Below, piece by piece: positions 10,377 through 62,917 of a DNA stretch of 64,000 bases. The first letter of the stretch is position 1. Each line of letters opens with the position of its first letter. A program made the position numbers and the translations under genes. The notes under the pieces were generated by a model. It was not told where the DNA came from. It did no database searches and saw only the letters and a program-made list of their open reading frames with translations. Source of the DNA: Onishia taeanensis (GTDB lineage Bacteria; Pseudomonadota; Gammaproteobacteria; Pseudomonadales; Halomonadaceae); NCBI RefSeq assembly GCF_013349955.1, contig NZ_JABVXC010000005.1, positions 113,679-177,678 on the forward strand, read 5' to 3'.

Positions 10377-10725
10377 GGGCTTTCCCTCCTGTGGTCGGTC
10401 CCTGACTGCTTGCTGATTGTCCGACGGCGCCTTTCCTGATCGTTCGCCCCTCGCTGTTCTTATCGGCCGCTGTGCGTTTTCCGGGCGGATTTTAGCCTTC
10501 GGTCCGGCCTCGGGCGAGGGCAACGATCTAAGGCGAGGCGTGTGATTAGACATTGGTCTCGCTTTGTGCGCTGTGTCTTGCTCTGACCAGAATCCTACTC
10601 TAAGAATGAATGGTAGCGCTAACATCGGCGCATCGCCAGAGCCATGCAGCGGCCATTCTTGCCCCTCTTAGGGCCCGCCAGACGAGCGCCATATTCGCTC
10701 ATGATCATTCAGCTAGGAGTCTTCC
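10377..10725. promoter_or_regulatory. Divergent regulatory region between the LacI-type gene and ltnD
   Basis: A 349-nt gene-free stretch between divergent start codons. Its clearest element is the near-palindrome at 10611-10624. I could not place -35/-10 boxes with confidence; short readings across it have no family character. Confidence 0.6.
10611..10624. promoter_or_regulatory. Candidate LacI-family operator
   Basis: The sequence TGGTAGCGCTAACA is a 14-nt near-perfect palindrome with a central CG, the form bound by LacI/GntR-class repressors. It lies 102 nt upstream of the ltnD start and 235 nt from the start of the LacI-type gene, where it could control both. Confidence 0.6.
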
Positions 10726-11679
10726 GTGTCCCCACAAAACGCCTCATCCATCGGTGTCGTCGGCCTTGGTGCCATGGGTCTCGGCTCGGCCACGGCCATG
10801 CTCGAAGCCGGTCTGCCGGTCATTGGCTGCGATATTTCGGCCAAGGCCCGCGAGACCTTCGAGGCAAGGGGTGGGCGCTGCGTGTCCACTCCCGCCGAAC
10901 TTGCCGCCGAGTGCCGTGTGGTAGTGCTGGTGGTGGTCAATGCGGAGCAGGTCGAGAGTGTGCTCTTCGATGCCCCGGCTTCGGGTGAGGCGGCTCTGGC
11001 CGCGAGTCTGGCGCCGGGCAGCCTGGTGATGCAGTGCGCCACGGTGGCCCCTAGCTATGCCACGGCGCTCGGCGAACGGCTGGCGGCGTTGAACCTCGAG
11101 ATGCTCGACGCGCCGATCAGCGGTGGCGCCGCCAAGGCACGCAGCGGCGATTTATCGGTGATGGCCTCCGGTGCCGAGACCGCCTACGCCAAGGGGCAGG
11201 CGGCACTCGATGCCATGGCGGCCAAGGTTTATCGCCTCGGTGATGCGCCGGGCCCAGGCTCCAGCGTCAAACTGGTTAACCAGCATCTGGCCGGGGTGCA
11301 TATCGCTGCGGCCGCCGAGGCACTGGCGCTGGGCATCCGCATGGGGATCGACCCCGAGGTGCTGTATGAGGTGATCACCCACTCGGCGGGTAACTCCTGG
11401 ATGTTCGAGAACCGCGTGCCGCACATCCTCAAGGGCGATTACACCCCGCTCTCGGCGGTGGATATCTTCGTCAAGGATTTGAACATCGTGCACCAGACCG
11501 GCCGCGAGCTGCGCTTCTCGATGCCGGTGGCGGGCAGCGCCCTGCAACAGTTCACCGCCGCCAGCGGTGCGGGCTTCGGCCGCGAGGATGACTCGGCGGT
11601 GATCAAGGTCTATCAGCGTCTGTCTGGCATCGACCTGCCGGCCGCCAACGACGGCAATGCAGGGGAGGGGCTGTCATGA
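10726..11679 (+). CDS. ltnD: L-threonate dehydrogenase (3-hydroxyisobutyrate dehydrogenase family)
   Basis: NAD-dependent oxidation of L-threonate to 2-oxo-tetronate, the entry step of the pathway encoded downstream. 317 residues with the N-terminal Rossmann motif GVVGLGAMGLGSA, the substrate motif DAPISGGAAKA, and the catalytic-lysine segment SSVKLVNQHLAG typical of the family. Translation starts at GTG 10726 after TAGGAG six nt upstream. Its stop overlaps the otnK start (ATGA), giving tight coupling. Assignment to ltnD rather than a generic family member rests on the gene order ltnD-otnK-otnC-otnI. Confidence 0.88.
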   Translation: MSPQNASSIGVVGLGAMGLGSATAMLEAGLPVIGCDISAKARETFEARGGRCVSTPAELAAECRVVVLVVVNAEQVESVLFDAPASGEAALAASLAPGSLVMQCATVAPSYATALGERLAALNLEMLDAPISGGAAKARSGDLSVMASGAETAYAKGQAALDAMAAKVYRLGDAPGPGSSVKLVNQHLAGVHIAAAAEALALGIRMGIDPEVLYEVITHSAGNSWMFENRVPHILKGDYTPLSAVDIFVKDLNIVHQTGRELRFSMPVAGSALQQFTAASGAGFGREDDSAVIKVYQRLSGIDLPAANDGNAGEGLS

Positions 11680-49054: not shown

Positions 49055-49215
49055 GCACGGGATGAATGTGGCCTTATTCTCTCAGAGTGCTCCAGCAGGA
49101 CCAAACGGCCGGCAGCTAGGGTATGACTGGCCGTGACTCGCGACCCGTGACCGGCACTGGCGATTTTCATGGGCGAATTACACTGAAGGGTACAGTGGCC
49201 AGCGAGGATGGGGAG

Positions 49216-50253
49216 ATGGCGAATATTGTGGTCTGCGCAGACGGTACCTGGAACCGCCCCGAGGATGACCTGAAACAGGACTTTCCCACCAATGTGCTGC
49301 GGCTCTCCCGAGCCATCAAGCCCGACGGCGGTGACCTGAAACAGCATGTCTTTTACGACTGGGGGCTTGGCTCATACCACCATAGCCTGAGCGCGGGAGC
49401 GACCGGCAAGGGCATTCAGAAGAACATCATGGATGGCTATCGCTATATCCTGCATAACTACGCTCCGGGTGACCGGATATTTCTGTTTGGTTTCAGCCGC
49501 GGTGCCTACACCGTGCGAGCCATAAGCGGGCTGATCAACAACTGCGGCATTCTCAAACGCCAGGATGCGCGCTTGGTGACAGAAGCCTGGAAGATCTACA
49601 AGAGCCCCAGCGCGAAGAACCATCCCCGCGGAGAAGCCGCCATGGCGTTTCGGGCCCGCCATAGCCACGTATCGCGGCAGGTACATTTCATCGGCGCCTG
49701 GGACACCGTTGGTGCGCTGGGCATTCCCCATAGCCTGATGGGGCTCTTCGAGCGGGATGACGAATTCTACGATACCAAGATCGGTGCCAACGCCTCGGTA
49801 GTGCGCCAGGCCCTGGCCATCGATGAAAAGCGCGAAGACTTCGAGCCCACCATCTGGCTGCCCAGGCCAGGTGTCGATATGAAGCAGGTCTGGTTTGCCG
49901 GCGTGCATACCGATGTTGGCGGCTCCTACCCGCCCGATAAAGGAACCGGCATTCGCGCCTCTGATACGCCCCTCGAGTGGATGCTCACCGAAGCCGAAGG
50001 TGCTGGCCTGATGGTGGAGCGGCATCTACGGGATAGCCTGACGCCGGGAGAGCGGGGCAAGCTCCACCAATCCCGCAAACACGTCTATCGGTTGAAGCCT
50101 CCGTTGCAACGGGAGTTGATCGTCTCAGGCAAACCCACCCTCATTCATCCCAGTGTCAGACGCCGCTACGAAGCCGACCCCAGCTACAGACCTCCCCAAC
50201 TGAAAATACTGGTCGATCAATATGGCTGGGATCAATTGGACGTGGGCGCCTGA
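49216..50253 (+). CDS. DUF2235 alpha/beta-hydrolase domain protein
   Basis: 345 residues from ATG 49216 (MANIVVCADGTWN, the standard DUF2235 opening); GAGG lies eight nt upstream. The nucleophile elbow GFSRG gives S94, with the acid in FIGAWDTVGALG and the catalytic histidine in FAGVHTDVGGSYP, so an intact lipase/esterase-like triad. DUF2235 includes Tle1-type phospholipase effectors of type VI secretion, but no VgrG, PAAR or immunity gene is nearby, so a housekeeping hydrolase is likelier here. No signal peptide. Confidence 0.88.
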   Translation: MANIVVCADGTWNRPEDDLKQDFPTNVLRLSRAIKPDGGDLKQHVFYDWGLGSYHHSLSAGATGKGIQKNIMDGYRYILHNYAPGDRIFLFGFSRGAYTVRAISGLINNCGILKRQDARLVTEAWKIYKSPSAKNHPRGEAAMAFRARHSHVSRQVHFIGAWDTVGALGIPHSLMGLFERDDEFYDTKIGANASVVRQALAIDEKREDFEPTIWLPRPGVDMKQVWFAGVHTDVGGSYPPDKGTGIRASDTPLEWMLTEAEGAGLMVERHLRDSLTPGERGKLHQSRKHVYRLKPPLQRELIVSGKPTLIHPSVRRRYEADPSYRPPQLKILVDQYGWDQLDVGA

Positions 50254-52613: not shown

Positions 52614-53501
52614 ATGGACCTGGAAACCCTGAAAATATTCGAGGCCGTCGCCGCTGAGCTGAGCGTGACCCGCGCCGCCGCGCGGCTCGGGCGTGCCCCC
52701 TCCAACGTCACGACGCGCATCCAGCAATTGGAGGCGGAGCTGGACGCGGCGCTGTTCATTCGCCTCGGCAAGCGCATCACGCTTTCGACGGCGGGGCAGC
52801 GTTTCCTGACCTACGCACAGCGCCTGCTGGCGCTGGAGGACGAGGCCCGGCAGGCCGTGGGCGGCAGCGGTGATGGCAGCCTGCGTATCGGCAGCATGGA
52901 GAGCACGGCGGCCAGCCGGCTGCCGGCGCCGCTGGCAGCCTTCAACCGCGCCCATCCGGCGACCCGGCTCGAGGTCAGCACCGGCCCCTCCGGCCCGCTG
53001 GTGGAAGAAGTGCGCGACGGGCGGCTGGACTGCGCTTTCGTGGCCTTGCCCGCCGAGCTTGAGAACGAGCCAGCCCTGGCCGAGATGGGGCTGCAAAGCG
53101 CGCCGGTTTGGGAGGAATCGTTGCTGCTGCTGTTGCCGCCCGCCGATGCTGTGGCCACCACACCGGCGGAACTTATCACCCGTACTCGCACCCGCACCCT
53201 GGCGGCCTTCAAGCCGGGCTGCACCTACCGCGCCATGGCGGAACAGCGGCTCGGCATCGTCGCCGGGAGCGAGTGGCGTGTTCAGGAGCTCGGCTCCTAC
53301 CACGCCATGGTGGCGGCCGTTTCGGCGGGCGCCTGCGTCACCCTGCTGCCGCGCAGCGTGCTGGAACTGTGCCGCGTGCCGGACGACCTGACCACGCTGG
53401 AGATGGGCACCGTCACCACGCGCCTGCTGTGGCGCCGCGGCTACGAGACGCCCGCCTTTCAGGCGTTCGCGGGTGAGTTTCTGAGGGAGACATGTACCTG
53501 A
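52614..53501 (+). CDS. LysR-family transcriptional regulator
   Basis: 295 residues. N-terminal winged helix-turn-helix (LETLKIFEAVAAELSVTRAA, RLGRAPSNVTTRIQQLEAEL, LFIRLGKRITLSTAG) followed by the LysR effector-binding domain (residues ~90-290). Divergent from the flavin oxidoreductase gene, the classical arrangement for a LysR regulator and its target; the shared spacer contains a fitting dyad. Confidence 0.93.
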   Translation: MDLETLKIFEAVAAELSVTRAAARLGRAPSNVTTRIQQLEAELDAALFIRLGKRITLSTAGQRFLTYAQRLLALEDEARQAVGGSGDGSLRIGSMESTAASRLPAPLAAFNRAHPATRLEVSTGPSGPLVEEVRDGRLDCAFVALPAELENEPALAEMGLQSAPVWEESLLLLLPPADAVATTPAELITRTRTRTLAAFKPGCTYRAMAEQRLGIVAGSEWRVQELGSYHAMVAAVSAGACVTLLPRSVLELCRVPDDLTTLEMGTVTTRLLWRRGYETPAFQAFAGEFLRETCT

Positions 53502-53598: not shown

Positions 53599-54819
53599 AT
53601 GAAGCTCAAGTGCCTGACACTGGAAAACTTTCGTGCCAAGCCCTCTCTGTCGATGACATTGGGGCCGCGCCTGACCCTGCTGATGGGCGCGAATGGCAGC
53701 GGCAAGACCACGCTGCTGGACGGTATCGCCATCGGGCTCGGTGAAATCCTCACCTATCTGCCTGGTGTGTCGGGCATGACCTTCAAGAAACGCGGTGAGA
53801 TACATCAGCGGGATAACCGCCTGGCTCCCTTCACGCGGATTAGCCTGGAAACCCCGCAGGGGCTGGGCTGGGACCGCCTGCAGCGGCGCGACAACAGCAA
53901 GAAGACGACCGGCGAGATTCCCCCGGGGCGAGGCGTGAAGGCGCTCAAGCAGCACCTGGACACTTCTGTGATCGAGCCCTGGTCGGCCGGTGAATCCTTC
54001 GAACTGCCGGTGTTTGCCTATTATGGCGTCAGCCGCGCTTTGCTGGATTTGCCCCGGAGTCGCAAAGGATTTCCCAAGTCACATGAACGCTTCGATGCCC
54101 TGGCCAATGCGCTGAACGCCGATACGCGCTTCAAGTCGGCCTTCGTCTGGTTCTACAACAAGGAAAACGAGGAGCATCGCCTGCAGAAGCAGCACAAAAG
54201 CTTCGATGTGACACTTCCCGAGCTGGACGCCGTCCGCCGTGCCATCACACGGTTGTTTCCGGACCTATCCGAGCCGCATGTCGAGCTCAATCCACTGCGT
54301 TTCGCGGTGAAGCAGGAAGGCGAGTGGCTTGACATCGCCCAGCTCAGCGATGGCTATCAGACCCTGTTGGGTTTGGTCATAGATCTCAGTTCACGCATGG
54401 CCATGGCCAATCCGCAGCTGGACGATCCGCTGGCAGCCGAAGCGGTGGTGATGATCGACGAAGTCGATCTGCACTTGCATCCCGAGTGGCAGCGGCGAGT
54501 GCTGGGAGACCTGCTGGCCACCTTCTCCAATACCCAGTTCATCGTCACCACGCATAGCCCCTTTATCGTCGAGGCGCTCAACAATCACCTCAAGCGCAGC
54601 CAGATCGACGGCCTCGAGATCGCCAGCGAGTCCATCCGGTCACTGCTGCCGCTTTCGCCGGAAGAGGTGGCTGCCTATCACGTGACGCCGGACGAGGCTC
54701 AGTCGCTGATGGATGCCGATCTGGGCCTGCTCGATGACAAGCTGCTCGGCCACTTCAATGCCATCAATCGTCTCTATGACGAGATGCGAGATATCGAGTG
54801 GGAGCATCGCGAGGCATGA
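53599..54819 (+). CDS. AAA (ABC/RecF-like) ATPase, candidate defence-pair subunit
   Basis: 406 residues. Walker A GANGSGKTT (30-38) after MKLKCLTLENFRAKP; signature-like LSDGYQTLLGLV (~253); Walker B VVMIDEVDLHLHPEWQ (~285); switch histidine in FIVTTHSPFIVEA (~318). This is the RecF/Rad50-like AAA_21/AAA_15 architecture used by OLD, PtuA, RloA and similar nuclease-coupled ATPases, with only a short helical insert in place of a long coiled coil. No nuclease domain of its own. Its stop overlaps the next start (ATGA), so it is translationally coupled to a PD-(D/E)XK protein. Base composition resembles the host. Confidence 0.9.
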   Translation: MKLKCLTLENFRAKPSLSMTLGPRLTLLMGANGSGKTTLLDGIAIGLGEILTYLPGVSGMTFKKRGEIHQRDNRLAPFTRISLETPQGLGWDRLQRRDNSKKTTGEIPPGRGVKALKQHLDTSVIEPWSAGESFELPVFAYYGVSRALLDLPRSRKGFPKSHERFDALANALNADTRFKSAFVWFYNKENEEHRLQKQHKSFDVTLPELDAVRRAITRLFPDLSEPHVELNPLRFAVKQEGEWLDIAQLSDGYQTLLGLVIDLSSRMAMANPQLDDPLAAEAVVMIDEVDLHLHPEWQRRVLGDLLATFSNTQFIVTTHSPFIVEALNNHLKRSQIDGLEIASESIRSLLPLSPEEVAAYHVTPDEAQSLMDADLGLLDDKLLGHFNAINRLYDEMRDIEWEHREA

Positions 54820-55313
54820 ACCTGGGCGAGTATCAGCACTGCGTGTGCCGCAAGATGGGCAACACACAGGCGCAGTGCCTCGGGGAGTACACGCTCGGTG
54901 AGCAGGGCAAGCTGGTTCGCCTGACCCCCAAGACAGGAGAGCGGGGCGTCGCTGTCGTGCTGGATGGCTGCGTGTTGCGTGACAACCAACCGAAGTGCGA
55001 TGGCCTCTTCCTCTGGCAGGGCAATCAACGCCATGCGGCCGTGCTCGTCGAACTCAAGGGAGCCGGTGATATTCCGCATGCCTTCGAGCAGTTGGCCTAT
55101 GTGAAGCGTCATCGGGCGGAATATCGGCAGCTGGTGGCTTGCCTGGAAGAGGAAGCACGCGGGCGGGTAGCGGAAAAAGCCGTGGTGGTAACCAACGGCC
55201 TGCTGCCCAAGCCGGAACAGGAACGGCTGGAGAACCACCACGGCATCCGAGTGATGGCCGTCATACACTGCGAAGCCAGCTCGCCAATCCCGGATGTCCG
55301 GGATTATCTCTGA
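54816..55313 (+). CDS. PD-(D/E)XK nuclease-like protein coupled to the AAA ATPase
   Basis: 165 residues from ATG 54816, overlapping the ATPase stop by 4 nt. I read a RecB-type nuclease core: D62 in KCDGLFLW, E79 and K81 in VLVELKGAG (the D...ExK triad), then Q92 with Y95 in FEQLAYVKRH (the QxxxY helix of that superfamily). N-terminal residues 1-50 carry three cysteines. No other domain. I do not recognise a named family; the assignment to the nuclease superfamily is from motif order and spacing. Together with the ATPase it forms a two-gene module. Confidence 0.72.
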   Translation: MNLGEYQHCVCRKMGNTQAQCLGEYTLGEQGKLVRLTPKTGERGVAVVLDGCVLRDNQPKCDGLFLWQGNQRHAAVLVELKGAGDIPHAFEQLAYVKRHRAEYRQLVACLEEEARGRVAEKAVVVTNGLLPKPEQERLENHHGIRVMAVIHCEASSPIPDVRDYL

Positions 55314-55432
55314 TTGGCCAGTGTATCAACGAGTCTATCTACCGCGGCGGCCAGCGTTTCGTCGATGACGTGCAGGTACACCATCCAGTCGTCGACCTGG
55401 TTAAACGCCACCTTGGCTGCGCCCCAGCGCGT
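55304..55432 (-). pseudogene. Possible 3' remnant of an unidentified gene
   Basis: The minus strand has a 42-residue open stretch with natural-looking composition (RWGAAKVAFNQVDDWMVYLH ... VDRLVDTLANQR) preceded by an in-frame stop and without a start codon. It overlaps the last bases of the nuclease gene and lies upstream of the acetyltransferase. It may be the tail of a gene whose 5' part was lost. No family recognised. Confidence 0.3.
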
Positions 55433-55511: not shown

Positions 55512-55955
55512 ATGAACGTCGAGAGCGTAGGGAAAGCCGACTATCGTGAGCTGCTGGATGTCTGGGAGGCATCGGTCAGGGCAACCCATGATTTCTTGCG
55601 CGAACAGGACCTGTTGGAGCTGAAGCCGCTCATTTACGAGCAGTATTTCGGCGCGGTCGGTTTAACCTGCGTAAAAGGCGGAAGTGGTGAAATCCTAGGC
55701 TTCTGTGGCGTGCACGACGGCAATATAGAAATGCTGTTCATCGCACCGCAGGCACGCGGGGAGGGCATCGGCTCCTTACTACTGGATGATGCGGTAACGG
55801 CCCAAGGCGCCACCAAGGTAGACGTTAACGAACAGAACCCACAGGCGCTGGGCTTCTACCAGCACAAAGGTTTTACCGTCAAAGACCGCTCCCCGCTCGA
55901 CGGCCTGGATAAGCCCTATCCATTGCTGCATATGGAACTTGAAAATACGCCGTGA
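55512..55955 (+). CDS. GNAT N-acetyltransferase, YjaB-like
   Basis: 147 residues from ATG 55512, with AAGGGA seven nt upstream. GNAT fold with the acetyl-CoA loop PQARGEGIGSLL (Q/RxxGxG/A) and the YjaB-like segments VWEASVRATHDFL, VDVNEQNPQALGFYQHKGF and DKPYPLLHMEL. Substrate unknown. Upstream in-frame sequence (from 55314) has no family character. Not part of the ATPase-nuclease unit, from which it is 198 nt apart. Confidence 0.88.
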   Translation: MNVESVGKADYRELLDVWEASVRATHDFLREQDLLELKPLIYEQYFGAVGLTCVKGGSGEILGFCGVHDGNIEMLFIAPQARGEGIGSLLLDDAVTAQGATKVDVNEQNPQALGFYQHKGFTVKDRSPLDGLDKPYPLLHMELENTP

Positions 55956-56565: not shown

Positions 56566-56699
56566 TCTTGGTGGGAAGCTGATATTTCACCTCGGGAAAG
56601 TGCTAGCTAAAAAGTCTTTGGGAACATAAAAATCACTGATGGAATGATTTGTAAATACAGTGTTTTAAATATACAGATTTGAAAATAAGGTTGCTGGTT

Positions 56700-59609
56700 A
56701 TGAATGATCCTAAAGGCTCATTGTGGCGAAAGTGGGATATGCACGTCCATACCCCATACTCGATATTGAACAATCAGTTCGGCGAAGATTTTGATGAGTA
56801 TGTGGTGAGGCTGTTTAAGTCTGCCATTGAGCGTGGAGTGGAGGCTATTGGTATTACAGATTACTGTATTATTGATGGGTATAAAAAGCTGGTGAAAGAT
56901 TATTTGAATGATGAGAAAAAATTAAAGTGTTTGTTTTCTGATGAAGAGGTAGAAAAAATAAGAAAAATAGCTGTATTTCCTAATCTTGAGTTTCGTCTTA
57001 ATAAGCTTGTTATTGGGAATGAAGTTGACTTAAAGTGGAATAGAAAAACTAACTTTCATGTGCTTCTCTCAAATGAGTTGACTCCAGAAGTTATAGAGGA
57101 AGAGTTTCTTTCTCGCGTTGAGTTCGAAATTCAGGCTATACCTGGGCAAAGAGCGGAAAGAAGGGGGTTGTCCAAGTCTAACTTGGAAGCTTATGGGCGC
57201 CAATTGATTGATCAGCACCCCAAGTTTTCTGGGAAAAACCCACTAGCTGTCGGGATATGCAATGCATCTGTAGACTCAGGAGAAATTGCAGATATATTAT
57301 ATTCTGATGCAAGGCTTAAGAGGAAATATTTGCTAGCCCTTCCTTGTGATGAAGATCTTAGTATAGTCAGTTGGGATTCAGCTGGACATGGGCTCAGGAA
57401 AACATTAATTCAACAAAGCCAGCTGGTTTTCTCCTCAAATAAAAATACACGAAAATTTCTGTTGGGTGGATTTCACGGCACTGTTTCCGAATTCAAAAAA
57501 GAATTCGGTTTGCCCAAGGCATGTATTTGGGGATCAGATGCGCATAGTTATGAAGGCTTGTTTAATCCTGATGAAAATAGGAATACTTGGATAAAAGCTG
57601 ACTTGACTTTTGAAGGGCTCAAGCAAGTTGTTTTTGAACCACAGTTTAGAGTTGCTATACAAGAGACTTGTCCTAGCAAGAAGACTGGTTATGAAGTTAT
57701 AGATTCGGTAAGGTTTATCGATAGCTCTGGAAAAGGTTTGTTTCAAGAGGGTGAAATAAATGTCAACCCTGAGCTAACTTCAATAATTGGTGGGAAGTCG
57801 TCGGGTAAATCGTTGTTGTTGTACCATATCGCAAAAACCGCAAACCGCGATGAAACAGAAAAAAAGCGATCTCTGGCGGGAGCTAGCAGCTATAATGAGT
57901 TGTTTGATGAGAAGGCTTTTGACTTTGAAGTTCTTTGGGCCGATGGTAGTGTTCAGAGGTTGAAGGAGAGGAATGCACAAAAGCCAATTACTTATATACC
58001 CCAGTTGTATATTAACAAGCTTGCTGAAGAGAACGGTAGGGATCAGCTTAACGAGCTGGTTTTAGAAGTTATATTCCAAGATGCTTCTGTCAAGCAAAGA
58101 GTGGAGAGTCTTTATAAAGAGCGCGATGTTACAAATGAAAGAATTGGATCGGCTGTGGCCAAGCTAGTTGGGTTGAGGCATCAGTATTCAAGAGCAAAAA
58201 AAGAATTAGAAAATATCGGAGATTTCGAGTCTGTCAAAAAAGAAATAGAGCGGATAAATAATGAAATTGAGCGCGTTCAAAAATCTTCTGGGTTTACACC
58301 TGAAGAGCACCAAGAATACAAGAGCCTGTCTTCTAGGTTGTCTAGGATAGAAAAGCGTAAAGTTTCAATAGAGCTGTTTTCCTCTAACCTTCAAGAGTTG
58401 GGTGATAACCTTGTTGATGAGATTGAATCATCATTGTCAAATGTTGGAATTTATTTAGGTGATGCAAATAGTTCTCCAAAAATCAGTGTTTCCGAGAAAC
58501 TAGCTTCGACGGTCTCCGGGGGGCTCTCTAAGTTAAAGCTTGACATCCAACAAGAAGTTGGTTTTGCAAGAAGTCGCGCAGAAAAGTTGTGTGAGAAGCT
58601 GAAAGCTCAAGAAGTAGCAACCTCTACGGCTCTCGAACAGTTTTCAAAAAAGATAAAAAGCCAAGAAGAGTTGAAAGATCTCCAAGCTTTTCTGAAAAAA
58701 CAAGAGCTAAAGCTCAAGTCGATTGAAGAAGCTGAAAAAGATGTTCAGTTGGTGAGAAAACAAGGCGGAGATATAGCTGCACAGCTACGTAATCTATATT
58801 CACATCTTTTTTCTATATATAAAGATATGGAGGGTGTTTTTAATGATGCCGCAGATGTAGATAGCGAAGTGATTAAGCTAATAGCAAGCGTTGAGTTTGA
58901 TCACGATCGCTTTGATAGTTTCATTGGCTGTTTTGATGGTAGGGGTAGTCTGAGTAGTTTGCTGGGCTGTTCTATAGACGAAGCTAATAGATATAAATAT
59001 AGAAAAGATAGTCACATTGAATCGATATTTGAGATTGTAGAGAAAACTCGTGATTTTTCTAAAATATCGAAAAAAGTTAAAAAGAGTGTTGATGAAGAAG
59101 CATTATTAAGAAATTTGCTGCAAGATTGCTTTTATATATCTTTCGATCTTTTGTATAAAGATGATGACATTATATCTATGTCGCCAGGTAAGCGTGGTTT
59201 GGTTTTGATTAATCTTATACTTCATCTCAGCAATTCTTCCCATCCAATTCTTATTGATCAGCCTGAAGATAATCTAGACAACCGAACTGTGTATAATGAG
59301 CTTAGAGATTTTGTTAGAGAAAGAAAAGTGGGGCGGCAAATAATAATGGTTACACATAACGCAAACATGGTTGTGTCTACTGATTCGGAATGCGTTGTTG
59401 TTGCGAATCAATCTGGGCAGCAAAGGGGTGTGGAAAATGAAAGCTGTAAGTTTGAGTATGTCTCCGGCGCTATTGAGTACACGTTCATAAACTTACAAGC
59501 ACCGTCTGTTCTAAAGGCTTATGGGATTCGAGAGCATATATGTGAAGTTCTAGAAGGCGGTCAGCTTGCATTCGAGGAACGAGAAAGAAAGTATGCTTTT
59601 AGATCCTGA
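56700..59609 (+). CDS. TrlF-family PHP-domain/SMC-like ATPase
   Basis: 969 residues. N-terminal PHP phosphoesterase domain: DMHVHTPYS gives the metal pair H15/H17, GITDY D54, further acidic residues in FPNLEFRL and GNEVDL, and the late motif WGSDAHSYE. The ATPase has Walker A GGKSSGKS (~363), a long coiled coil (~450-720), Walker B LIDQPEDNLDNR (~850) and a switch histidine in IMVTHNANMVV. This is the TrlF arrangement: SMC-like ATP sensor plus metal-dependent PHP hydrolase/nuclease. Composition is strikingly A+T rich against host genes on both sides, pointing to transfer. ATG 56700 has AAGG upstream; a TTG at 56679 is possible. Confidence 0.85.
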   Translation: MNDPKGSLWRKWDMHVHTPYSILNNQFGEDFDEYVVRLFKSAIERGVEAIGITDYCIIDGYKKLVKDYLNDEKKLKCLFSDEEVEKIRKIAVFPNLEFRLNKLVIGNEVDLKWNRKTNFHVLLSNELTPEVIEEEFLSRVEFEIQAIPGQRAERRGLSKSNLEAYGRQLIDQHPKFSGKNPLAVGICNASVDSGEIADILYSDARLKRKYLLALPCDEDLSIVSWDSAGHGLRKTLIQQSQLVFSSNKNTRKFLLGGFHGTVSEFKKEFGLPKACIWGSDAHSYEGLFNPDENRNTWIKADLTFEGLKQVVFEPQFRVAIQETCPSKKTGYEVIDSVRFIDSSGKGLFQEGEINVNPELTSIIGGKSSGKSLLLYHIAKTANRDETEKKRSLAGASSYNELFDEKAFDFEVLWADGSVQRLKERNAQKPITYIPQLYINKLAEENGRDQLNELVLEVIFQDASVKQRVESLYKERDVTNERIGSAVAKLVGLRHQYSRAKKELENIGDFESVKKEIERINNEIERVQKSSGFTPEEHQEYKSLSSRLSRIEKRKVSIELFSSNLQELGDNLVDEIESSLSNVGIYLGDANSSPKISVSEKLASTVSGGLSKLKLDIQQEVGFARSRAEKLCEKLKAQEVATSTALEQFSKKIKSQEELKDLQAFLKKQELKLKSIEEAEKDVQLVRKQGGDIAAQLRNLYSHLFSIYKDMEGVFNDAADVDSEVIKLIASVEFDHDRFDSFIGCFDGRGSLSSLLGCSIDEANRYKYRKDSHIESIFEIVEKTRDFSKISKKVKKSVDEEALLRNLLQDCFYISFDLLYKDDDIISMSPGKRGLVLINLILHLSNSSHPILIDQPEDNLDNRTVYNELRDFVRERKVGRQIIMVTHNANMVVSTDSECVVVANQSGQQRGVENESCKFEYVSGAIEYTFINLQAPSVLKAYGIREHICEVLEGGQLAFEERERKYAFRS

Positions 59610-59665: not shown

Positions 59666-59836
59666 TCATACCCCACTCACCCGCATCTCTCGCCGCTGCG
59701 CCGCGCCCATCAGCTGGCCGCGGCCAGTTTCCACCAGCGTCAGCCAGTGGCGGGTTCGGATGATGACATTGTAGGCCAGCTTCCGGGTGAGGATGGGGTT
59801 CGGCGCGTCGAGCAGCACCAGCGCGGCGTGGGTGGA
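59666..59836 (-). pseudogene. Duplicated 3' end of recD (remnant)
   Basis: The minus strand encodes about 55 residues matching the RecD C-terminus (THAALVLLDAPNPILTRKL, RHWLTLVETGRGQLM, AAQRREMRVSG) and ends at an equivalent stop. By eye it is near 89% identical to 60689-60860 over ~166 nt, including a 47-of-48 identical block. It has no 5' part: the homology breaks off at A+T-rich DNA just upstream. Interpreted as the old or incoming recD end left by an insertion. Confidence 0.85.
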
Positions 59837-59901: not shown

Positions 59902-60462
59902 CTAGTACTGAATAATCATACGTCTATAATAATGCGGATCACTTACCTTGGGGTTAAAAATACAGTCCACGAACTCACCATCAGTGCTTCCAAATCCATC
60001 GCTCATGCCGCTGATTACAAAACTACTTCTGTGATTTTCATATATTTCAAAATGAAAGTCCATGAAAAATCCCAAAAAGTCAATGTCGTAAAAGCATTCG
60101 GATTTTCTTCCCGACTCATAAAAACTTTCCCGTTTTGTTGAACCATCATCATACCTGTAACGATCTTCCAGTTTAGACAGCACATCATCTTCGATGCTTT
60201 TCAACTCGGATTTCTGTAAGTCATGTCTGCACTTAAATGCACAAAACAAATAATACCTCGGGTTGCCGGAACTGTACGATCTGGCTGACAGATCTCCCAT
60301 AGTCAGCCCTACTTTTGCAAAAGTATTATTTGCAGCATCGGCAGCCAAATACAACCAGGTCTCTGTTGACTCGAAATCTAGTCTTGATCTCTCCCTGATA
60401 TATTCCAGTTTGTAATCGTCAGAAATATCAATGTCGTCAAGGGTTCTTTTTTCTTTTCTCAA
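59902..60462 (-). CDS. A+T-rich orphan gene, possibly GIY-YIG-like
   Basis: 186 residues in low-GC DNA between the two recD ends. The segment ETWLYLAADAANNTFAKVGL, then SARSYSSGNPRYYLF and KSELKSIEDDVLSKL, has the order seen in GIY-YIG/T5orf172-type domains (Y-x-Y, then KIG-like, then R, then a helix with E), but the signature is degenerate. The C-terminal half is rich in aromatic residues (FLGFFMDFHFEIYENH). I cannot name a family. ATG 60462 has no strong ribosome site. Confidence 0.65.
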   Translation of the reverse strand: MRKEKRTLDDIDISDDYKLEYIRERSRLDFESTETWLYLAADAANNTFAKVGLTMGDLSARSYSSGNPRYYLFCAFKCRHDLQKSELKSIEDDVLSKLEDRYRYDDGSTKRESFYESGRKSECFYDIDFLGFFMDFHFEIYENHRSSFVISGMSDGFGSTDGEFVDCIFNPKVSDPHYYRRMIIQY

Positions 60463-60688: not shown

Positions 60689-62917
60689 TCAGCTCCCCAG
60701 CCCACTCACCCGCATCACCCGTCTCTGCGCCGTGTCCATCAGCTGGCCGCGGCCAGTTTCCACCAGCGTTAGCCAGTGGCGGGCGCGTGTGATGCCGGTG
60801 TAAACCAGCTCCCGGGTGAGGATGGGGTTCGGCGCGTCGGGCAGCACCAGGGCGGCGTGGGTGAACTCCGAGCCCTGTGATTTGTGCACCGTCATCGCGA
60901 ACACCGTCTCCACCGACTGCAGGCGGCTGGGCAGCACCCACTTGATGCGGTCGGTGCCGTCGCCGGCGGGGAAGGCGACCCGCAGCAGGCGGCGATTGTC
61001 GTCGCCGGGCGAGGCGCCCGGGCGCGGCATATCCAGGGTGATGCCGATATCGCCGTTCATCAGCCCCAGGCCGTAGTCGTTCTTGGTGACGAGCACTGGG
61101 CGGCCGGGGTACCAGCGCTGGCGGCCGTCCTGGCTGTCGATCAGCTTCTCCCGCTCCAGCGCCTGGCGCACCCGCTCGTTCAGGCCTTCCACGCCCCATG
61201 AGCCACGGCGCAGCGCGCACAGCAGCTGGAAGTCGCCGTGGGCTGCCAACACGGCACGTGCCCAGTCATCGAAGTCCTGCTGTTCGGCGTCGTCGGTTGG
61301 GCGCCGCTCGGCCATCACGCTCAGGAAGTGGCGATAGCCCACCGGCGGCGGCAGCGTTTCGTCGCGATGTACTCGGCCCTGGCCGGCATGGGGAAAACGC
61401 TCGGGGCAGCCGGTCACCGCTAGGCGGGCCAGGCCGCGCTCGTCGTCGGCGGAAAGCTTCAGGTGCGAAAGGTCGGCGAAGCCGTGGTTGAGGGCGTCGC
61501 CAATCGCTTTGCGCTTGGCGGCGGGCTCGGCTTCCAGGTTGATAGCGGCGGCCAGTTGGCCGATGCCGCTATCTGCCGTGAAGCGGTGGCTGACGCGCAG
61601 CATGGCGATGGCTTGGTCCAGCGGCTGGCCGTCGGCGTCCAGGGTGTCGCTTGGCAGCGGCTGGCCGGTGGCCTCGGCCAGCCACTCGGCGGTGGCCGGG
61701 GTGTAGTGGCCGCCCTCGGCCCGGGCGCACAGGTCGCCGAGCACGGAGCCGGCCTCCACCGAGGCGAGCTGGTCCTTGTCGCCGAGCAGCACCAGCCGCG
61801 CCCGGGGCGGCAGCGCTTCGAGCATCGCGGCCATCATGCCCACGTCCACCATCGAGGCCTCGTCTACCACCAGCACGTCCAGCGGCAGCGGGTTGTGGCG
61901 GTCGTGGCGGAAGCGGCGGGTATCGGGGCGCGAGCCGAGCAATCTATGCAGCGTACTCACCTCTTTCGGAATCACCTCGCGCAGCCGCTCGGGATCGTCG
62001 TCCAGGCCGTCGAGTTCGAGCTTGGCCACCTGGCTGGCGATGGACTCGTTGAGCCGGGCGGCGGCCTTGCCGGTGGGCGCAGCCAGGCGAATGCGCAGGG
62101 CCTGCTTTCCTTCCCCCTCGTCTTCACCGAACGCCAGTGCCTGCAGCAGGGCGAGCAAGCGTACCACGGTGGTGGTCTTGCCGGTGCCGGGTCCGCCGGT
62201 GATCACCGCGAAGCGCGAGCGGCCGGCCAGGGCACAGGCGGCCTTCTGCCAGTCGAGCGGCGCGGGCTGTGTGGGCTCGGGAAACAGCGCATCGAGGATC
62301 GGGCGTAAGCGAGCCGCATCCGGGGCGTCGTCGTTATCCGTTCCCCCGAGCCTTGCGACAATCCGGCTGTGAATATCCTGCTCGTGCTGCCAGTAGCGGC
62401 GCAGGTAGAGGCGTGGGCGCGCATTGGTGCCGGCCAGCACCAGCGGCGTGCTGCCGGGGCCTTCGGCCACTAGCTCGGGCTGAGAAAGCGCCGCGCGCCA
62501 GGCGTCGAGCTCCAGCGCAGTCATCACCCGGCTGGGCAACGGTGGAGGGTCCTCCAGGCTATCGCCCTCTGGCGGCAGCGAGAGCGCCAGGTCCGGGGTG
62601 GCCAGGGTCTGAGCCAGGTCGAGACACACATGGCCGCGGCCGAGCTGGTGGCTGGCCAGCGCCGCCGCCAGCAGCAGCAGGGGTGAGGCCTCACTTACCG
62701 GGCTCCCTTTACTCTCCCTGCTTTCGCGGCTCGCCTCGCGATGCAGAAAGGCGGCGAAGGCGCGGTCCAGCGATCGCAGCCAGCCGCGCTCCACCCAGCG
62801 GTCGAGCAGGGCGAACAGCACCGCGTGATCGGCCAGCGCATATTCGGGCGCTTGAATCAGCGCGGTCTCCGGGGCGTCGGTATTGACCGGGGAGGCGTTG
62901 GAAGATGTCGGCATCAT
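60689..62917 (-). CDS. recD: Exodeoxyribonuclease V subunit alpha (RecD helicase)
   Basis: 742-residue 5'-3' SF1B helicase subunit of RecBCD. Walker A GGPGTGKTTTV near residue 238, motif II VVDEASMVDVGMM, motif III LLGDKDQLASVEAG, then the C-terminal FAMTVHKSQGSEFTHAAL and the motif VI region TGITRARHWL. Start ATG 62917 follows GGAGGCC; it overlaps the recB stop (ATGATG with TGA). A large diverse segment is typical of RecD. Its last ~57 codons are duplicated at 59666-59836, so the current 3' end may have been exchanged by recombination. Confidence 0.95.
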   Translation of the reverse strand: MMPTSSNASPVNTDAPETALIQAPEYALADHAVLFALLDRWVERGWLRSLDRAFAAFLHREASRESRESKGSPVSEASPLLLLAAALASHQLGRGHVCLDLAQTLATPDLALSLPPEGDSLEDPPPLPSRVMTALELDAWRAALSQPELVAEGPGSTPLVLAGTNARPRLYLRRYWQHEQDIHSRIVARLGGTDNDDAPDAARLRPILDALFPEPTQPAPLDWQKAACALAGRSRFAVITGGPGTGKTTTVVRLLALLQALAFGEDEGEGKQALRIRLAAPTGKAAARLNESIASQVAKLELDGLDDDPERLREVIPKEVSTLHRLLGSRPDTRRFRHDRHNPLPLDVLVVDEASMVDVGMMAAMLEALPPRARLVLLGDKDQLASVEAGSVLGDLCARAEGGHYTPATAEWLAEATGQPLPSDTLDADGQPLDQAIAMLRVSHRFTADSGIGQLAAAINLEAEPAAKRKAIGDALNHGFADLSHLKLSADDERGLARLAVTGCPERFPHAGQGRVHRDETLPPPVGYRHFLSVMAERRPTDDAEQQDFDDWARAVLAAHGDFQLLCALRRGSWGVEGLNERVRQALEREKLIDSQDGRQRWYPGRPVLVTKNDYGLGLMNGDIGITLDMPRPGASPGDDNRRLLRVAFPAGDGTDRIKWVLPSRLQSVETVFAMTVHKSQGSEFTHAALVLPDAPNPILTRELVYTGITRARHWLTLVETGRGQLMDTAQRRVMRVSGLGS

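Follow-up and report, generated by a model that had tools for sequence, protein, structure and literature searches.

A likely anti-phage gene pair of apparent mosaic origin couples a Septu-type ATPase core to a WonAB-type tail and a predicted PD-(D/E)XK nuclease

What kind of system is encoded by an ATPase gene and a small nuclease-like gene that stand together in Onishia taeanensis, and does the pair belong to any system already named? The two genes lie in the 64,000-nucleotide stretch of DNA analysed here (the window). Gene A (53599-54819, + strand) encodes an ABC-class ATPase of 406 amino acids, and gene B (54816-55313, + strand) encodes a predicted PD-(D/E)XK nuclease of 165 amino acids. 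Present annotation misses this class of system: the ATPase is scored as PtuA, PtuB is not found, and nothing is called.

The layout of the two reading frames is as the initial annotation described it. The stop of the ATPase gene overlaps the start of the 165-residue protein by ATGA (54816-54819, + strand), consistent with translational coupling; gene A ends in GCATGA, and the ATG within that overlap is the start of gene B. The product of gene A bears a Walker A motif, GANGSGKT, at residue 30 (53686-53709), an LSDGYQ motif at residue 249, a Walker B and D-loop, VVMIDEVD, at residue 283 (54445-54468) and an H-loop, TTHS, at residue 317 (54547-54558), all encoded on the + strand. Across 14 relatives D287, E288 and H319 are invariant and Walker A is mostly so. 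The order D62, E79-x-K81, Q92xxxY95 was likewise found in B where it had been claimed, with the motif codons at 54999-55001 (D62), 55050-55052 (E79), 55056-55058 (K81) and 55089-55091 (Q92) of the + strand. D62, E79, K81, Q92, D50, C52 and C61 do not change in 14 relatives with identity down to 47%, among which Y95 is kept in at least 90%; in more distant relatives C9, D50, C61, D62, E79, K81 and Q92 are still invariant, and Y95 is not. Compared with the relative at L022, B has a dN/dS (NG86) of 0.075 and A one of 0.070. Because the two genes are under purifying selection and occur together in every relative found, as a survey of their co-occurrence established, they are real genes and not chance ORFs. 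Separately, B has conserved cysteines at C9, C11, C21, C52 and C61 (54840-54998), several of which persist in distant cousins as a C-x-C near the N-terminus and as DGC..(K/R)CD beside the active site, a pattern that suggests a putative structural metal site.

We found B in 15 of 275 Halomonadaceae genomes, spread over six genera, with one distant cousin (L016) in addition. A search among 85,000 species genomes returned 14 named loci, hosted by Onishia, Modicisalibacter, Litchfieldella, Chromohalobacter, Halomonas, two Chlorobi MAGs and a Desulfobulbus contig, and gene A is directly upstream of B at every one of them. Some copies are damaged: A is frameshifted in L027, and both genes are damaged in the Desulfobulbus locus (L032). 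The loci occupy many unrelated chromosomal contexts, and A and B alone are common to all. Identity to the window's B is about 55% for both Chlorobi and Halomonas proteins, while different Halomonas proteins are 50-57% identical to one another. This comparison indicates horizontal transfer of the pair, to be taken with caution because the Chlorobi records are MAGs. B was found in none of the plasmid, phage and viral-contig records searched, and a scan of viral contigs with the L016 protein and its group gave no match. At two Halomonas loci (L028, 6975-8737; L029, 3064-4826), unassigned genes of 144 and 449 codons stand directly upstream of the pair and overlap the ATPase start; neither product has a Pfam match and the 449-residue protein has no PADLOC match, and these loci may represent the system in a four-gene form.

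Relatives show what the present site of the pair looks like when empty. The pair is the sole content of an insertion of ~1.9 kb (53495 to ~55413) between two host genes on the + strand, a LysR-family regulator on the left (52614-53501) and a GNAT acetyltransferase on the right (55512-55955). Three same-genus genomes (G163, G166 and G168; L048, L049 and L050) lack the segment, their flanks are ~91% identical, and their GNAT gene directly follows the LysR gene. Carried in with the pair was a remnant recognised by protein match, the last ~30 codons at the 3′ end of a nucleosidase-like gene (55314-55413, - strand); L021 has a complete version of that gene (10489-11241; 250 residues) immediately after B. 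Given the three empty sites, the pair moved as a clean ~1.9-kb unit with just a gene fragment in tow. Neither an integrase nor a terminal repeat was seen inside the insertion.

The interval from LysR to recD holds different cargo in each genome. The window has the pair and a TrlF-family gene, and an Onishia taeanensis genome has the pair with GajA and GajB of Gabija (PADLOC 8e-206 and 3e-228). In G168 the interval (L050, 4193-8902) contains two genes for TIR-domain proteins and one for a STAND NTPase-like protein, the last broken by an IS3-type transposase pair. Two further same-genus genomes have unassigned genes at this hotspot (L048, 2653-4020, - strand; L049, 4073-5680), which are candidates for undescribed systems. 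Farther afield, at the Chlorobaculum locus L031, a gene for a NACHT protein immediately precedes the pair, and no obvious defence gene was seen beside it in L022, L023, L024 and L025. As relatives and the window hold Gabija, TIR/STAND or TrlF genes in this interval, a defence role for the pair is well supported by its mobility and its place in a hotspot, both of which lend indirect support to a predicted anti-phage function.

The foreign insertions that had been noticed beside the pair are both real. The TrlF-family gene (56679-59609, + strand), encoding a PHP/SMC-like ATPase, scores 586 bits against NCBIfam NF045780 (cut-off 350), has a GC content of 38.8% compared with 59.3% for the window, and is a second recent insertion in the interval. 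Its island is bounded by a 163-bp duplicate of the recD 3′ end (59672-59834), 88% identical to the original at ~60700-60863. A recD-end fragment, 92% identical, is also present in the same-genus genome G165, and islands may insert repeatedly at the recD 3′ end. Between TrlF and recD, as cargo of that island, lies a 186-codon ORF (59902-60462, - strand; 39% GC) with no convincing family match. The flank on the other side includes a gene for a protein with a T6SS Tle1-like phospholipase domain (49123-50253; Pfam 1e-80).

The ATPase had been called RecF/OLD-like, and its motifs bear out the ATPase; the label proved too general, as the core (residues 1-320) is specifically PtuA-like by three comparisons. 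PADLOC's PtuA model matches residues 1-326 at E 1e-92. By profile, gene A matches solved PtuA structures of retrons Ec78 and Ec83 and of Septu, the best being retron Ec78 at E 8e-47 and the others weaker. In hhalign, the core aligned with a PtuA set of four members annotated with HNH partners over all 320 columns (residues 1-320; 100%, E 2.9e-69), and with the ATPase cores of the OLD-REase pairs, which we call cousins, over 73 columns only (E 2e-7). An AF2 model of A, with pLDDT 60, was left out, and the fold search used the model of B.

Beyond about residue 333 the affinity changes. The C-terminal extension of gene A (residues ~333-406; 54595-54816, + strand), a presumed effector-docking tail, has the sequence VAAYHVTPDEAQSLMDADLGLLDDKLLGHFNAINRLYDEMRDIEWE; an example of a cousin ATPase tail is VAAYFVENGGIRSIMDDELKMIRAEEIDSVSRVINADYDQLLTLDLE. 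Aligned with cousin ATPase tails of the PDC-M29A and PD-T4-4 kind, the tail matched at 95.3% (E 2e-8), and with PtuA tails at 0.2% probability. The score against the cousins was 43.9, the best of 100 column-shuffled controls reaching 15.6, and the match stood at 95.9% once the PD-T4-4 member was removed. BLAST alignments of gene A show the same switch, those with PtuAs ending at residues 324-352 and those with most cousin ATPases spanning residues 280-405. By these profiles the tail appears to be of the WonA/PDC-M29A type and not of the PtuA type, and a docking role is predicted for it.

The initial annotation had read B as a stand-alone PD-(D/E)XK protein, and both the invariant motif and the structural neighbours of an AF2 model agree with that reading. 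The model (pLDDT 81.8, pTM 0.81) places strands at 62-68 and 73-81 ahead of a helix at 83-99, the order expected for D..ExK..Q. Its best VIA neighbours are mostly PD-(D/E)XK enzymes, namely Can2 (Z 6.4), Cdn1 (5.8), EndoMS (5.7), PaqCI (5.4) and FokI (5.0), with BsmI, BamHI, MspJI, Cap4 and Shedu in lower rows; all Z values are below 8, modest figures that would not decide the fold alone. Foldseek returned nothing at E <= 0.001. Metallo-beta-lactamases came first in that search (E 0.02-0.09; TM 0.2-0.3, rmsd 6-10 Å), and we rejected them as noise because the motif and the VIA rows point elsewhere. With Z below 8 and no Foldseek match, the fold call rests on the motif, homology and the enrichment of PD-(D/E)XK rows together.

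Among these, homology to PDC-M29B-like REases is the decisive evidence for the family of B. No Pfam, NCBIfam, PADLOC or PHROGs model matched B itself, and a PDB sequence search with its profile gave nothing meaningful; relatives of B weakly match HSDR_N (E 0.009) and SduA_C (E 0.047). The connection runs through L016, a weak match of B in a family genome, where an AAA_15 ATPase accompanies a 141-residue protein that PADLOC identifies as PDC-M29B (E 5e-13). A reverse search with this small protein found the window's B as the only match in the source genome; elsewhere it found more small proteins coupled to ATPases. We reached the distant B-like proteins via L016, L053, L054, L056, L057, L061, L062 and L063. 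The B family aligned with the REases of the first five of these at 97.9% (E 5.4e-13), across the D50/C52/C61/D62/E79/K81/Q92 core. Three of those five match PDC-M29B, as do L061 and L062 (E 5e-13 to 0.002), and the L063 nuclease matches PD-T4-4_B. Two weak matches from a class-wide search with the B profile, one inside a TPR protein and the other in an unrelated protein, were set aside, as was the single weak match of the PDC-M29B model in same-class genomes, inside an unrelated protease-like ORF. Sequence and model together predict that B is a PD-(D/E)XK nuclease related to the small 'novel REase' effectors of OLD-ABC ATPase pairs.

Read from the profiles, the pair thus presents as a mosaic: a Septu-type ATPase core, a predicted docking tail of the WonA/PDC-M29A type and a cognate REase replacing HNH PtuB. 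The breakpoint, as inferred from the same profiles, would lie near the H-loop (~residues 320-330). We moderately favour the view that this is a distinct, unnamed defence type that arose by recombination there, when a PtuA core gained the tail and REase of WonAB/PDC-M29.

As for function, the pair is likely, in our view, to be a mobile anti-phage module of two genes and mosaic origin, with A as sensor and regulator, B as effector nuclease and abortion of infection as the outcome. A, a PtuA-type ABC ATPase, would form a head-to-tail dimer with ATP at the dimer interface, and B would dock on the WonA/PDC-M29A-type tail of A, in the way proposed for WonA. B itself would be a small nuclease of the metal-dependent PD-(D/E)XK kind, with D62, E79, K81 and Q92 in its active site, kept inactive or unstable until A reports infection; A would then release or activate B, nucleic acid would be cut, and the infection would be aborted. 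WonAB is anti-phage and requires both the ATPase residues of WonA and K71 of WonB, WonB is predicted to dock on the dimerised C-terminal extensions of WonA, and WonB overproduction is toxic only with active WonA (PMC12137116). WonAB blocks translation and does not degrade DNA, pointing to an RNA target (PMC12137116), and retron-Eco7 PtuAB depletes tRNA-Tyr (PMC11555353). By analogy with these two systems, host RNA (tRNA or rRNA) would be a likelier target of B than chromosomal DNA. An A-B complex and its trigger are inferred, as are the nuclease activity of B, its action on RNA and protection against phage.

Could the pair instead be an ordinary Septu variant, in which B is a diverged PtuB and its PD-(D/E)XK reading is wrong? 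The core of A is unmistakably PtuA, and its nearest PtuA relatives are partnered with HNH PtuB. However, PADLOC yields no PtuB match for B at E 1 or for its relatives at E 10, B is homologous to PDC-M29B-type REases and has the motif D..ExK..Q, and A lacks the PtuA tail. The B/REase profile match and a tail unlike that of PtuA largely refute a diverged PtuB, and we hold this explanation to be very improbable. It is unlikely that the pair is plain WonAB/PDC-M29 with a diverged ATPase and no recombination between system types. That B and the tail of A belong to this group, and that all these ATPases are distantly related, speaks for it; against it, the core is PtuA over 320 columns (E 3e-69), compared with 73 columns for cousin cores (E 2e-7), and the BLAST alignments switch, with PtuAs ending by residues 324-352 and most cousins covering 280-405 only.

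Other explanations concern what the pair does. B might cut incoming DNA under licence from A, making the pair a toxin-antitoxin or a plasmid-exclusion/DNA-restriction module, which we regard as possible though doubtful. PD-(D/E)XK enzymes are mostly DNases, and DNA restriction enzymes are among the structural neighbours of B. In addition, work cited in PMC11555353 reports that nicked phage DNA is the target of the PtuAB found in E. coli ATCC 25922. Set against this is the behaviour of WonAB, the closest tested relative of B, where WonB is toxic only with WonA, DNA stays intact and translation stops. We give next to no credence to a housekeeping repair pair of a RecF-like ATPase and a nuclease without a defence role: ATPases of A's class do resemble RecF, Rad50 and SMC, and in this genus the pair is located near recBCD, but it is present in just 15 of 275 family genomes, is cleanly absent from three of the same genus, occupies several unrelated chromosomal sites, extends to other phyla and adjoins other defence genes.

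If the pair is, as we propose, a Septu-type core that gained a new tail and nuclease, it suggests that the sensing and killing halves of such bacterial systems are interchangeable. The ATPases PtuA, OLD, AriA (PARIS) and WonA/PD-T4-4 look like a single sensor theme combined with a variety of effectors. The pair bears on how effectors are exchanged among ABC-ATPase sensors: here a breakpoint is visible, at which a Septu core passes into a WonA-type tail and nuclease at the H-loop. We predict that the choice of nuclease by an ABC-ATPase sensor depends on its ~75-residue tail and on nothing else. If the proposed recombination is true, tail plus effector would constitute an exchangeable cassette on ABC-ATPase sensors, and further sensor-effector combinations would be predicted.

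How new is the combination? The initial annotation had stated that the pair matches no named system, and this holds in that a PtuA core with this nuclease was found in no model or paper searched, the 2020 ABC-ATPase survey, which reportedly coined 'novel REase', being outside that search. It does not hold for the kind of operon, an ABC-ATPase with a small PD-(D/E)XK nuclease, which has been described as WonAB, as the 'OLD-ABC ATPase + novel REase' operon and as PD-T4-4 (PMC12137116); PDC-M29 is a PADLOC candidate system of this kind. No library model calls a system at the locus; PADLOC scores the core of A as PtuA, and would count it as a PtuA on its own, with PtuB missing.

Septu and the PtuAB of type I-A retrons share with the window pair the ATPase core, with its nucleotide-binding motifs and the stretch that separates these (100%, E 3e-69). 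They differ in that the pair lacks HNH PtuB, has a nuclease of another fold and has had its PtuA tail replaced. No PtuB or HNH gene was found beside A, where B has no such match and the next genes are LysR and GNAT, and the inserted segment, which is A and B only, has no reverse transcriptase, which together with an msr-msd RNA marks the cassette of type I-A retrons. Since PtuB and the PtuA tail were looked for and are absent, the pair is by definition not Septu. A precedent for partner change on PtuA-like ATPases is given by ptuXYZ, which also joins a PtuA-like ATPase to effectors other than HNH PtuB but comprises three genes, with DUF262 and PIN/BECR-RNase effectors and no PD-(D/E)XK protein (PMC11980606).

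On the other side, the pair resembles WonAB and PDC-M29 in its gene order, ATPase then small PD-(D/E)XK nuclease, and in the same kind of C-terminal extension, which in WonA is the predicted binder of WonB; the likeness to WonA and WonB is drawn via PDC-M29 and PMC12137116. B falls in one nuclease group with PDC-M29B-like REases, but the PDC-M29B model does not match it, and, at 165 residues, B is ~10 residues longer beyond the Q92 helix and carries a conserved C-x-C..C at its N-terminus. PD-T4-4 is also an ABC ATPase with a small PD-(D/E)XK nuclease, and the PD-T4-4-like nuclease of L063 keeps CD..ELK..Q, whereas PD-T4-4_B models miss the window's B and the ATPase core is unlike. The core of A is PtuA while those of WonAB and PDC-M29 are AriA/OLD-like, and because of this difference in core sequence the pair appears not to be a strict WonAB/PDC-M29 either. 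It is best called a Septu-core, WonAB-effector hybrid, which by analogy would resemble both in its working.
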